Source: Balneolaceae bacterium
Lineage (GTDB): Bacteria; Bacteroidota; Rhodothermia; Balneolales; Balneolaceae
Assembly: GCA_034521495.1 (NCBI GenBank)
Contig: JAXHMK010000022.1
Coordinates: 124,001 to 188,000, forward strand
Reading direction: 5' to 3'
Length of the DNA stretch: 64,000 nucleotides
Part shown: positions 40,947 through 50,522 of the stretch, in pieces
Layout of the letters: each line of letters opens with the position of its first letter
How positions within the stretch are numbered: position 1 is the first letter of the stretch
Notes under the pieces: generated by a model
Told to the model about the DNA's origin: nothing
The model's input: the letters and a program-made list of their open reading frames with translations, nothing else
The model's database searches: none
Program-made: the position numbers and the translations under genes

Positions 40947-42041
40947 CTACAGCTCAATCCTCGATCGCCCATTCCTTGAACTCTCCATAATGGCATTTAC
41001 AATCCGGATGTCATTCAGTCCCTGGCTGCCGGGTACTATTGGTGGCCGTCCTTCTTTGATAGCCAGTGCTTCAGCATCCATCTGTCGGGCTTGCTGGTGG
41101 CCGGGATCGGCAGGTAGATCAGTTCCGTCGCTGGTCTGTCCCTGTACTCCGCTGTATGATGACATCGGCTTCAGGTAGTACCAGCCATCTTCGGTATTTA
41201 CATTCAGGTAGTTCATCGATTTGCCGAAACTTGTTTCGCCCGTGCAGATCATGCCGTTTGCAAATTCCAATTTAAAGTCGGTAATCTCATCCACTTCGGG
41301 GTAAACTTCCTTTCGAACCGTGCTTTGCCGCCCGTTAACAGCAATGGGTTCCATTTGAGTGGCATATCGAATGGCATTGATCGGATAGACGCCCATATCA
41401 TACAAAGCACCTCCGCCAAGCTCGGCATTTTTTCTCCAATTGCCATCTTCATGATATCCGTCATACCCGGCGGCTGTTCGAACTTCTGTCACAGCTCCGT
41501 AGGTTTGTTCCCTGGCAAACTGCATAATTTTCTGAGTGTTCGGTTCATGATGCAGCCGGTATCCGATGGCCAGGCTCACATTATTCCGATTTACTGCATC
41601 AATAATGTTCTGGCACTCTTCCACATTCATAGCCATCGGTTTTTCGCACCATACATGTTTACCCGCTTCAGCAGCTATGATGGAATATTTAGCATGAAGG
41701 CCGGTTGGCAAAACAATATATACGATATCAATTTCATCGTTATTGGCTATCTCGTGCATATTCTCGTAGTTGTATACATTGCCATCGGGGATATTATATT
41801 TTTCCTGCCAAACCGGGATTTTTTCCGGCGATCCGGTTACAATTCCTCTTAATTCGCAATGTTCGGTTTGCTGCAGTCCGGGTCCCAATCGTCCCGTACT
41901 GTAACTTCCCAATCCTACCAAGGCTACACCCAGCTTCTCCCTGCTTTGCGGGATGATAATATTAGGTAATCCAATTGCCGATACAGCCAGCGCTGATCCT
42001 GTTTGTTTTAAAAAGGTTCTTCTTGAAATTGTGTTTGCCAT
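40947..42041 (-). CDS. Exported Gfo/Idh/MocA family oxidoreductase
   Basis: A 364-residue NAD(P)-dependent sugar-type oxidoreductase. Residues 6-12 (SRRTFLK) form a Tat signal followed by a hydrophobic stretch, so the folded protein with cofactor is probably exported. The Rossmann motif VALVGLGSYSTG follows at about residues 38-49, and the family motif WCEKPMAMN at about 130 contains the catalytic lysine. Exported members include glucose-fructose oxidoreductase relatives. The substrate is unknown; the D/R-rich C-terminus (NGRSRIEL) is complete. Confidence 0.92.
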   Translation of the reverse strand: MANTISRRTFLKQTGSALAVSAIGLPNIIIPQSREKLGVALVGLGSYSTGRLGPGLQQTEHCELRGIVTGSPEKIPVWQEKYNIPDGNVYNYENMHEIANNDEIDIVYIVLPTGLHAKYSIIAAEAGKHVWCEKPMAMNVEECQNIIDAVNRNNVSLAIGYRLHHEPNTQKIMQFAREQTYGAVTEVRTAAGYDGYHEDGNWRKNAELGGGALYDMGVYPINAIRYATQMEPIAVNGRQSTVRKEVYPEVDEITDFKLEFANGMICTGETSFGKSMNYLNVNTEDGWYYLKPMSSYSGVQGQTSDGTDLPADPGHQQARQMDAEALAIKEGRPPIVPGSQGLNDIRIVNAIMESSRNGRSRIEL

Positions 42042-42161
42042 AATGATGAATCTTAATAATTGATTAATGCTACTTCATTAAAATATGTAATTCGGTTAAA
42101 TAACTGAAAATCAGAGCATCAAAAAGCAAGCAAATTATAATCTTTGGTTTTTACATATTTA

Positions 42162-42290
42162 GAAGGCTTTGCAAAACTATGACCGTCATCCTGAACTTGA
42201 TTCAGGATCTCCTGATACTGGCTATAAAGACGAATGGAGAATCTGAATCGAGTTCAGATTGACGCATACCCACGGTTTTGCAAAGCCTTC
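42162..42290. mobile_element. 129-bp MITE, copy A
   Basis: The element is bounded by perfect 16-base terminal inverted repeats, GAAGGCTTTGCAAAAC at 42162-42177 and GTTTTGCAAAGCCTTC at 42275-42290. Direct repeats ATTTA at 42157-42161 and 42291-42295 fit a 5-base target duplication. The interior holds two hairpins (ATCCTGAACTTGATTCAGGAT and TCTGAATCGAGTTCAGA). Copy B at 46398-46526 has the same length and different flanks. It encodes nothing and needs a transposase in trans. Confidence 0.85.
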
Positions 42291-42322
42291 ATTTAATGTA
42301 CAGTCAAAAAATTGGTTTTCTT

Positions 42323-43219
42323 ATGGATAATAAAATATTTCAAAACGATCATGCTAAAGAGAAGCTTGAAGAGTGGTATCAGCTGTTTTTGAATAAGATC
42401 GATACTCCTACAGAATCCATCCAGGTAGAAACGTCATTTGGCACCAGTCATGTTTTGAAAGCGGGAGATGATTCCAAACCGGTACTTCTTTGCCTGCACT
42501 CCATGTTGACAAGCTCAGCTCATTTGGTTTCTGAGCTAAATCCATTATTGGATCATTATCAAATTTTTGCACCCGATCTGCCGGGCCAATTTGTTAGAGG
42601 GCCTGAAGTAAGATTTTCGTACAAAGACAACTCATTTTCAGATTGACTTTTCGAAATTGAGAGTGAATTCAGTTTGGAGAAGATCAACTTGCTTGGAATT
42701 AGTTTGGGTGGTTTTGCCGGCTTACAGTTTGCAAAAGTTTATCCAGGCAATGTAAATAATTTGATCCTGATTGTACCGGCGGGAGTTGTTTGCAGATCAA
42801 TATGGGAAGATGTTAAGAAAATGGCTGTTCCGTCAATTTTGTACCGGTTCAATCAAACTTAGAAGAGGCTCAAGAAATTTGTAGATCCACTTCTTACAAC
42901 CTGGGATGAAGATTGGGGGCCTTATATCGGTGATGTGTTCACCTTATTTAAACCCGATCTGAGAATTCTGCCTCTCATTTTTGAGGAGGAAATTAAAAAA
43001 TGGGAAATTTCCACGCTTGTGTTTGCAGCGGAGAATGATATCTCTTTTCCCGGCAGGAAGATGATTCGAAGATTAAAATCGAACAACTCGGATATCCAAA
43101 CGGAGTTGTTGGAAAATTGTAAACATTCCCCGCCAACGACGCCAAAATTCCGAATATGTTTATCCGGAAAAATTCTGGAATTTCTTGAGGGAGAGGGTGC
43201 AGTAAAATCAAAAAATTGA
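42323..43219 (+). pseudogene. Alpha/beta hydrolase gene interrupted by two in-frame stops
   Basis: Reading one frame from ATG 42323 gives a 298-codon alpha/beta hydrolase with the nucleophile motif GISLGG (S127), acid D239 (AENDISFPG) and H268 (CKHSPPTT). The frame is broken by TGA at codon 108 (42644-42646) and TAG at codon 180 (42860-42862), with no indels, so all three pieces stay in phase. It therefore looks recently inactivated by point mutations. The start is only 32 bases downstream of MITE copy A, whose insertion may have removed or displaced its promoter. An alternative start at 42296 lies almost inside the element. Confidence 0.88.
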
Positions 43220-43359: not shown

Positions 43360-46164
43360 ATGACCTGGAAAGAAACTATACGACATTACGCCGAATCTGC
43401 TAACATCAGTGATCCTTTAACTGCAAACCTTATTACTCTTACAGGATTTTTAGAAGAATACCTGCAGAATCGGGGTCAAAAATCACTCCGAGAATTAGCC
43501 GCAGAACTTCCTGAACTATCTGCAAAAGCGTTTAAAGATTCAGGTGAAAAATTTAATGAACAGCTTGTAGATCGGATCGAGCAGATGGATATCGATCAGA
43601 TTCGTGGTTTACTTCGCCTTACAACTATTTTCTTTCACCTGGTTAACTCCCTTGAGCAGCACGAGATCATACGAATTAACCGGGAGCGGGCTAAAAAAAT
43701 TGATCTGGATCATCCGCGTCCCGAGAGTATTGCCGATGCTCTGAAATTTTTCAAAAATAAGGGTATTAGTTACAATGATGCGCTGGAACTGTTCAAACAG
43801 ATGGATATTCAGCCTACAATAACAGCTCACCCAACAGAAGCCCGCCGCCGTAGTGTGCTAAATAAACAAGAAAATATTACCGATATGATCGGTGATCTGG
43901 ACGATCCGCGGCTAACACCCAACGAAAGAGATGCACAGCTCAAGCAGATTGTCAACGAAATTGCTCTTCTTATTTCGACCGATGAAGTGCGTTCCGAACG
44001 GCTTACAGTTGAAGATGAAGTAGAAAACGGTCTGTTTTACTTTACAAACTCTATCTGGAATACGGTGCCGCGATTGTATGATGACATTCGAAATGCTTTT
44101 ACTCAACAGTACAACAAAACACCCGATCTGCCGATTGTACTAAAGTACCGGTCGTGGATTGGAAGCGATCGTGATGGAAACCCCAATGTAACAAGAGATG
44201 TAACCTGGCAAACTTTGATTGAACATCGGAAAAGTGCGCTGAAGTTATATCTGAATGAGTTGGAAAAAATCCGCAGGTATCTTTCCATTTCGAATAACCT
44301 GGTACCGGTTTCTGATGAGCTTAAAAAATCATTGAAAAAAGATGAGAAGGAAGTACCGCTCACAACGCAGTATAAAAGGCATTATAAAAATGAGCCTTAC
44401 CGGAGAAAAATTACACATATCATGCATCGTCTCCGAAATATGCTGAATGATTTGAAAGGCAGTGAGCAGGAGATTTTAGAATCATCCAAATCATACAAAA
44501 CCAGCGATTTTATTGACGACCTGAACTTGATTTCAGAATCTTTGATAAATGGCGGATTGGAGGATATTGCCAAATTTGGCGACTTTAATGATTTGGTAAT
44601 CAGGGCCAATACATTCGGATTTCACTTGGCGGCTCTTGATATTCGTCAGCATAGTGGTGTGCATGAGAACGCCGTTAAAGATCTGTTGTCTGTTGCGAAT
44701 GTTCATGAAAACTATTCCAGTTTAGGTGAAGAGGAAAAAGTGGATATCCTTATGCAGGAACTTCGGAATCCGCGTCCGCTGGCTCCTAAACATGCGAGGT
44801 TAAAACCGGCTACCGTCGAAATTCTGGACGTATTTCAGTTAATTAACCAGATTCTTGAGCTGGATAAAAATGCTTTTGGAAGCTATATCATCAGTATGAC
44901 TCATGGTGTGAGTGATATGCTGGAAGTTGCAATTCTTGCAAAAGAAACGGGCTTATGGTGGCTTGAAAATGGAAGGGTAGGGAGTAAGATCGACATTGTT
45001 CCCCTTCTTGAAACCATTGAAGATCTGGATAAAGGAGCTGAGTTAACGGAAACAATCTTGACCAACGATCTCTACAAGCAACAACTGGAAGCCCGAAATA
45101 ACTTCCAGGAGATCATGTTGGGATACTCAGACAGTAACAAAGACGGTGGCTACTGGATGGCTAACTGGGCGCTTCAAAAAGGACAGATGGAACTTGGCCG
45201 GGTGCTTCGAAAGCACGATGTTGATTTCCGGTTGTTCCATGGCCGTGGAGGAACGGTAGGCCGTGGTGGTGGCCGATCTAACCGCGCTATTTTGGCACTG
45301 CCGTCCATCAGTAATAATGGACGAATTCGATTTACCGAGCAGGGTGAAATTATCTCCTTCCGGTATTCCCTCCCGGATATAACCCGTCGCCATCTCGAAC
45401 AGATTGTGAATGCCGTTGCCCGGGTAACTGGTGGCGAAGGCCAAAAAGAGATTAAAGAAGGTGATGAAACGGAAATCATCATGAACAAAATTTCAGAAGG
45501 TACGATGAAAGCCTATCGCGACCTGATTGACGATCCTGAATTTTGGGAGTGGTTTAAAAAAATTACACCGGTAGAGCATATTGGTAATCTTCCAATCGCT
45601 TCAAGGCCGGTGTCCCGGGGTGGAGACAAAGGGCTTGAATTTGACGATCTGCGGGCCATTCCGTGGGTATTCGGGTGGACACAGGTACGTTACAATGTTC
45701 CGGGTTGGTATGGATTGGGGGCTTCACTCGGCCCAATTATTGATGAGGATCCATCAGTGATGGAAACACTTAAAAAATGGTACAAGGAATGGAGTTTCTT
45801 CGGAACCATTGTGGATAATGCTCAACGAGAGCTTGCCCGAACACACGTATTAACAACCGAAATGTATACTAAAGATGCAGATCAGCGGCTGCATAAAACG
45901 ATTTTGAAAGATTTCGATAAAACACGTGATATGATCCTGGAAATTACTGAACAGGAAAATATTCTGGACATGAGGAAAGTGATACAAAATTCAATTGAAT
46001 TCAGGAATGTGTTTACATATCCGTTAAACCTGTTGCAGGTTGAACTATTAAACCGTTGGGAAGAGGCCGGTAAAAATGCGGATGAAGAGGAGATACTTGA
46101 ATTAAAGCATGCAATGTTCTTGAGTATCAACGGTGTTGCTGCGGCGATGCAGAGTACAGGATAA
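43360..46164 (+). CDS. ppc: Phosphoenolpyruvate carboxylase
   Basis: A 934-residue cytosolic enzyme that adds bicarbonate to phosphoenolpyruvate to give oxaloacetate, an anaplerotic step. Both signature regions are present: TITAHPTEARRRS with catalytic H157, and FHGRGGTVGRGGGRSN with H627 in the second loop. YRSWIGSDRDGNPNVT and the SDSNKDGGYWMANW segment are also diagnostic. The C-terminal GVAAAMQSTG ends as expected (…QxTG). It is transcribed alone, with convergent pressure from the sugar porter beyond 46165. Confidence 0.97.
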   Translation: MTWKETIRHYAESANISDPLTANLITLTGFLEEYLQNRGQKSLRELAAELPELSAKAFKDSGEKFNEQLVDRIEQMDIDQIRGLLRLTTIFFHLVNSLEQHEIIRINRERAKKIDLDHPRPESIADALKFFKNKGISYNDALELFKQMDIQPTITAHPTEARRRSVLNKQENITDMIGDLDDPRLTPNERDAQLKQIVNEIALLISTDEVRSERLTVEDEVENGLFYFTNSIWNTVPRLYDDIRNAFTQQYNKTPDLPIVLKYRSWIGSDRDGNPNVTRDVTWQTLIEHRKSALKLYLNELEKIRRYLSISNNLVPVSDELKKSLKKDEKEVPLTTQYKRHYKNEPYRRKITHIMHRLRNMLNDLKGSEQEILESSKSYKTSDFIDDLNLISESLINGGLEDIAKFGDFNDLVIRANTFGFHLAALDIRQHSGVHENAVKDLLSVANVHENYSSLGEEEKVDILMQELRNPRPLAPKHARLKPATVEILDVFQLINQILELDKNAFGSYIISMTHGVSDMLEVAILAKETGLWWLENGRVGSKIDIVPLLETIEDLDKGAELTETILTNDLYKQQLEARNNFQEIMLGYSDSNKDGGYWMANWALQKGQMELGRVLRKHDVDFRLFHGRGGTVGRGGGRSNRAILALPSISNNGRIRFTEQGEIISFRYSLPDITRRHLEQIVNAVARVTGGEGQKEIKEGDETEIIMNKISEGTMKAYRDLIDDPEFWEWFKKITPVEHIGNLPIASRPVSRGGDKGLEFDDLRAIPWVFGWTQVRYNVPGWYGLGASLGPIIDEDPSVMETLKKWYKEWSFFGTIVDNAQRELARTHVLTTEMYTKDADQRLHKTILKDFDKTRDMILEITEQENILDMRKVIQNSIEFRNVFTYPLNLLQVELLNRWEEAGKNADEEEILELKHAMFLSINGVAAAMQSTG

Positions 46165-46397: not shown

Positions 46398-46526
46398 GAA
46401 GGCTTTGCAAAACTCTGCCCGTCATCCTGAACTCGATTCAGGATCTCCAGATACTGGCTATAAAGGCGAATGGAGAATCTGAATCGAGTTCAGATTGACC
46501 AATAACCACGGTTTTGCAAAGCCCTC
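46398..46526. mobile_element. 129-bp MITE, copy B
   Basis: Second copy of the element at 42162-42290: left terminal repeat GAAGGCTTTGCAAAAC at 46398-46413, right repeat GTTTTGCAAAGCCCTC at 46511-46526 (one mismatch), same 129-base length and nearly the same interior. It is flanked by TTAAG at 46393-46397 and 46527-46531, a 5-base target duplication. It sits in the 500-base gene-free gap between ppc and the sugar porter. Confidence 0.85.
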
Positions 46527-50087: not shown

Positions 50088-50522
50088 TTAGGACATTACA
50101 ACTCTCTTGTCTAATCCACTGTTTTTAGCAGCAATACTGTACCTGGTGTGTGGTGCAAATTCAAGGCGTTCCTTTTCAATAGGTTGCCCGGTTGCCCGGC
50201 AGATTCCATAGGTTCCGTTATCAATTCTCTCAAGTGCTCTGTTTAGCTGACCGATAAATTTTCTATTTCTCTCGATAAGTCGGTTTGTAAGATCTACGCT
50301 CTCTTCAATGCTCCCCATGTCGCTCATATGATGATCAATAGAAGATGCATCATCTGTTTCTGATGAACGTTGCTCTTCAAGTGAATTTAAAAGGTATTCC
50401 AGTTCATCCCGGGCCTCTTGTCTTTTACGAATAATCAGTGATTCAAAGTATGCAAGTTCTGTTTCGTTGAGAACAGTTTTAAGGTCTTCTCTTGTCTGAG
50501 GAAATTTATGTGCTTCCATCAT
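50088..50522 (-). CDS. DksA/TraR-like protein with degenerate zinc finger
   Basis: A 144-residue protein of the DksA/TraR type, with an N-terminal coiled coil (residues about 20-100) that could reach into the RNA polymerase secondary channel. The C-terminal domain reads NGTYGICRATGQPIEKERLEFAPHTRYSIAAK: the GxCxxxG and RL..P..H positions are recognisable, but the second, third and fourth zinc cysteines are missing (TG and SIAAK instead of CG and CxxC). Such zinc-poor DksA relatives occur in Bacteroidota. A role in stringent control or polymerase modulation is plausible but unproven. Confidence 0.85.
   Translation of the reverse strand: MMEAHKFPQTREDLKTVLNETELAYFESLIIRKRQEARDELEYLLNSLEEQRSSETDDASSIDHHMSDMGSIEESVDLTNRLIERNRKFIGQLNRALERIDNGTYGICRATGQPIEKERLEFAPHTRYSIAAKNSGLDKRVVMS

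Follow-up and report, generated by a model that had tools for sequence, protein, structure and literature searches.

Bacterial pseudogenes that arise by point mutation carry in-frame stop codons and changes at conserved positions, mostly from G:C to A:T, and related species keep intact orthologues in an unchanged gene order. Bacterial MITEs are short, non-coding elements with inverted repeats that are flanked by a target duplication and occur in many copies; MITEAba12 of Acinetobacter, for example, is reportedly an IS-derived, non-autonomous element. Among solved proteins, the best-scoring relatives of the hydrolase family considered here are carboxylesterase NP/YbfK (4ccw, E 4e-28 in a profile search), with chains 4ccw, 2r11 and 4ccy presumably all representing this enzyme from Bacillus species.

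A gene and an adjacent element that recall these systems lie in a stretch of 64,000 nucleotides (the window) from a Balneolaceae genome of 4.57 Mb in 22 contigs; we infer that this genome and its congeners belong to the genus Rhodohalobacter. The gene, an alpha/beta hydrolase with two in-frame stops, shares every feature listed above with bacterial point-mutation pseudogenes, and differs from typical cases in having no indel yet and in keeping its catalytic residues, so that it stands at an early stage. The adjacent MITE has all the features listed for bacterial elements such as MITEAba12, from which it is distinguished by its 129 bp and its 5-bp duplication. The gene is very probably a real and recent pseudogene and not a case of readthrough, and its decay probably began before the MITE was inserted.

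The hydrolase gene and its neighbourhood

The coordinates of the features are given in Table 1; the interval 42162-43219 treated in the original prediction comprises the MITE and the hydrolase gene together. The hydrolase frame matches the Pfam families Abhydrolase_1 (PF00561, 3.4e-15) and Abhydrolase_6 (PF12697, 2.2e-7), both above the cut-off, and family profile and Ser-acid-His set agree in placing it among the alpha/beta hydrolases. The catalytic set had been described as intact, and indeed Ser127, Asp239 and His268 are retained and occupy the alignment positions of Ser, Glu and His in 4ccw. The Bacillus enzymes are nevertheless distant relatives: nucleophile and His correspond in the alignment, whereas the acid is Asp in the hydrolase family and Glu in the NP chain. 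By sequence relation, the gene would encode a carboxylesterase NP-like protein. The presence of two stops without any indel was borne out, as the frame has no internal indel relative to its nearest two orthologues, those of genomes G011 and G015; elsewhere in the alignment, G010 and G020 are without two residues near codon 105 and the ends of the orthologues vary in length.

Table 1. Positions of the hydrolase pseudogene, its flanking genes and the MITE in the window.
Feature	Position	Strand	Remarks
Alpha/beta hydrolase pseudogene (carboxylesterase NP-like by sequence relation)	42323-43219	+	298 codons plus stop; Ser127/Asp239/His268 present
In-frame TGA, codon 108	42644-42646	+	Trp in 8/8 intact orthologues (TGG in G011, G015)
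In-frame TAG, codon 180	42860-42862	+	Glu in 8/8 intact orthologues (GAA in G011, G015)
Divergent neighbour, open 364-aa frame, presumably a Gfo/Idh/MocA-type oxidoreductase	40947-42041	-	Adjoins hydrolase also in G011, G015
Downstream neighbour, open 934-aa frame, presumably phosphoenolpyruvate carboxylase (ppc)	43360-46164	+	Adjoins hydrolase also in G011, G015
MITE, 129 bp	42162-42290	.	Both ends carry inverted repeats GAAGGCTTTGCAAAAC; almost entirely palindromic
Target-site duplication ATTTA, left copy	42157-42161	.	5 bp
Target-site duplication ATTTA, right copy	42291-42295	.	5 bp

A comparison with relatives had been proposed as a check. G011 and G015, the latter taken to be Rhodohalobacter sulfatireducens WB101, carry an intact hydrolase in the same place and orientation and without the MITE, and the gene order ppc, hydrolase and divergent oxidoreductase is common to all three genomes. 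The window hydrolase is 71% identical to that of G011 and 64-65% identical to that of G015. The oxidoreductase, on the other hand, is 91% identical to its counterpart in G015 and 77% to that in G011, and since the nearest relatives of the two genes differ, the gene histories at this locus disagree.

A search of 58 genomes (own included) gave some match to the hydrolase in 38, mostly to distant hydrolases. At E 1e-30 or better, 12 of the 28 genomes of the genus (own included) were matched, namely the own genome, eight with open-frame family members of 42 to 71% identity and three with distant ones; G003, G007 and G022 have only a relative that is 24 to 28% identical. Scanning the genome contigs with the hydrolase alignment gave 17 loci, and scanning them with the single hydrolase protein gave no match. 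In G004 an intact copy is accompanied by a heavily decayed one (L075, G004:C76:1-3327), which decayed independently and shows a frame change as well as several stops. An in-frame TAA in G016 and G019 proved to be the normal terminal stop.

An orthologue of ppc (69% identity or more) is present in 23 of the 28 genomes of the genus; G013 and G017 have only a distant ppc, and G001, G009 and G021 gave no match. The 1.5 kb upstream of ppc could be read in 21 of these 23, G020 and G026 ending at a contig edge, and the hydrolase occupies this place in three of the 21 (own, G011 and G015). In G010, ppc has the oxidoreductase upstream of it in divergent orientation, and the interval between the two gave no hydrolase match. 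With the hydrolase at the ppc locus in so few of the readable genomes, the gene is accessory and its loss is not unusual; it is ordinary bacterial gene loss.

Conserved positions and a possible neutral phase

The window hydrolase deviates at 13 of the 78 columns that are invariant in eight other orthologues. Besides the two stops, these are 11 missense changes (I82F, S90F, L116F, G158R, G163D, P216L, S220F, L224I, P230S, E275K and W279C), and 11 of the 13 changes are from G:C to A:T when compared with the codons of G011 and G015. The same count gave 1/66 for G011, 6/71 for G015, 3/68 for G023, 1/66 for G004a and 3/68 for G010. For G016 and G019, whose hydrolases are near-identical to each other, it was 0/65 each, rising to 3/68 for G019 when G016 was dropped. 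The intact orthologue of G020, however, deviates at 10/75 columns, which is close to the value in the window. The main argument for a dead hydrolase is the pair of stops; the missense changes come second.

Eight sequences and 291 columns were analysed with a codon model that has three omega classes and, on a single tip, a neutral phase at the end; G016 was omitted as near-identical to G019. With the stops included, the neutral phase on the window hydrolase was u = 0.046 substitutions per site, the log likelihood dropping by 2.04 at 0.020, 1.01 at 0.07 and 4.30 at 0.10; an alternative topology gave u = 0.048. When the stops were masked in the same eight sequences, u was 0.036 with a 2 delta lnL of 9.1. 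Of the seven other sequences, five (G011, G015, G010, G020 and G004a; G019 and G023 were left out) were given the same tail, and 2 delta lnL was at most 2.0, the intact G020 showing a weak tail (u 0.028, 2 delta lnL 2.0). In a three-sequence model with the stops masked, the window hydrolase had u 0.038 and 2 delta lnL 4.2, and G011 and G015 had none.

As a control, the three-sequence model was applied to seven neighbouring intact genes in three lineages, giving 21 tests, and in two of these 2 delta lnL exceeded 3.84: w50088 in the window lineage (u 0.027, 2 delta lnL 5.9) and w38686 in the G015 lineage (u 0.075, 2 delta lnL 9.0). For w38121 the values were 2.6 and 2.3 on two lineages, and the remaining 17 were at most 0.8. 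Because the control fires on intact genes, ordinary relaxation or adaptive change can mimic a neutral phase, and the value of u is less certain than its likelihood interval suggests.

Averaged over the whole branch in three species, omega gave no sign of relaxation in the hydrolase (0.13 vs 0.11, 2 delta lnL 0.1), and an omega of 1 on the whole window branch fits 7.4 lnL units worse. A normal whole-branch omega means that any loss of the hydrolase is recent, and it speaks against an old pseudogene. For other genes of the window lineage, omega was 0.056 vs 0.028 in the sugar transporter and 0.19 vs 0.04 in w50088, and the relation was reversed in the oxidoreductase (0.029 vs 0.082). The intact gene at 50088-50522 (minus strand) combines a raised omega with a neutral-phase signal in the window lineage, and its constraint may have changed.

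The MITE and the order of events

The element in the window folds nearly end to end (z -11; none of 200 shuffles as good) and is recognised as a MITE by being short, having terminal inverted repeats, lacking an ORF, occurring in multiple copies and having a target-site duplication. Its end sequence GAAGGCTTTGCAAAAC, with at most one mismatch, was found 175 times in the window genome, compared with once for the reversed control. Among the matches listed (100 of 175), end pairs 129 to 158 bp long occur, and no inward-facing pair of IS size and no autonomous partner was seen by eye. The genome has 40 scored places, and 12 copies, including that of the window, lie within three mismatches. Among 30 aligned copies, that of the window shows no private base over its 129 positions, and two others are identical to it. 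Counted by eye in the 17 copies displayed with both ends, a perfect 5-bp target duplication is present in 12, window included, and the other five match at four of five bases or fewer.

No copy among the 30 is fully contained in a retained ORF (80 aa or more). Another 12 copies, picked from 29, lie upstream of ORFs of 193 to 478 codons that start 41 to 146 bp from the MITE; these ORFs are mechanical predictions, and five of them run off the stretch. Ten of them were compared with Pfam: nine match families, including ScpA, a sigma factor and pseudouridine synthase, and the tenth has no match. The window holds a second copy at 46398-46526, with TTAAG on both sides, between the convergent ppc and sugar-transporter genes. 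One arm of the MITE (42185-42211, GTCATCCTGAACTTGATTCAGGATCTC) recurs without the remainder in congeners and in three other Balneolaceae genera (G029, G032 and G033), with 92 to 100% identity along some 26 bases. Rfam gave no match in the window at gathering scores, and none of the papers in the collection searched has both Rhodohalobacter and MITE.

According to the original prediction, the MITE was inserted first and removed expression, after which the gene drifted. The data do not support this order, although it keeps some probability. The MITE is free of mutations while the hydrolase seems to have drifted by u of about 0.046, and giving gene and MITE (0/129 changes) an equal neutral exposure lowers lnL by 4.46; the resulting 2 delta lnL of 8.93 corresponds under the usual approximation to a one-sided p of about 0.001 to 0.003, uncorrected for the 2/21 control. 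As equal age fits worse, decay probably preceded the MITE. This relative dating takes mutation rates to be equal, gene conversion between MITE copies to be absent, the twins not to descend from the window MITE, and u to represent true neutral drift. Should the window MITE be the parent copy, or should gene conversion have homogenised the copies, the insertion cannot be dated from the clean sequence of that MITE.

That the MITE landed first and separated the hydrolase from its promoter, leaving an unused gene to drift, is a tentative alternative. The distance of 32 bases between the end of the MITE and the hydrolase ATG, as originally described, includes five bases of target duplication and is in its favour. 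Removing the MITE and one duplication would leave a spacer of 147 bp, comparable to the 154 bp of G011, though G015 has 235 bp. The gene-age estimate that opposes this order is itself weakened by the 2/21 control; on this account the MITE-first order moved from improbable to doubtful, and confidence in a decay-first order from fairly high to moderate. Against it, apart from the contrast in mutation load, is the position of the 12 other picked copies near ORFs, nearly all of those searched having a Pfam match.

The favoured order therefore remains decay first and MITE later, held with moderate confidence: a recent pseudogene that decayed by point mutation and beside which the MITE was inserted afterwards. 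The sequence of events would be as follows. An accessory carboxylesterase-like gene is located between ppc and the divergent oxidoreductase in three Rhodohalobacter species, and in the window lineage it would have been under purifying selection through most of its history. It would then have fallen out of use and drifted through point mutations, mostly from G:C to A:T and so far without an indel, gaining the two stops and about 11 changes at invariant positions. The MITE would have been inserted later, 32 bases upstream, when its family, which has made many insertions, spread in the genome. The broken frame, the orthology, the synteny and the MITE with its target duplication are seen in the sequences, and the loss of function and the earlier onset of decay are deduced from them.

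A probably dead gene beside a mobile element

That the gene has presumably lost its function was weighed against two further accounts. Sequencing or assembly error at both stops is very improbable, as other conserved positions of the hydrolase are altered too, masking the stops still leaves a neutral phase in the fit, and the flanking genes are open and conserved. Slightly less probable again is a hydrolase that is still read through its stops by selenocysteine, a suppressor tRNA or a leaky context. The frame is maintained across both stops, the catalytic residues are retained, and codon 108 is a TGA followed by C, TGA-C being a leaky stop context. However, the two stops differ and replace Trp and Glu, 11 further invariant columns are changed, and the sole tRNA-Sec match over the cut-off was rejected as a tRNA-Ser (anticodon tga), which together make readthrough unlikely. 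A variant in which low-level readthrough of both stops yields a little divergent esterase, at a level set by a hairpin-forming MITE leader, is equally hard to credit. The earlier preference for point mutation over recoding is thus upheld by the two stops, the missense changes and the neutral phase.

The hydrolase locus offers a clean example of gene loss at an early stage in Balneolaceae. It also cautions that a mobile element next to a dead gene has not necessarily killed it. Setting the mutation load of the element against that of the gene can hint at which event came first, within the limits that the control reveals.
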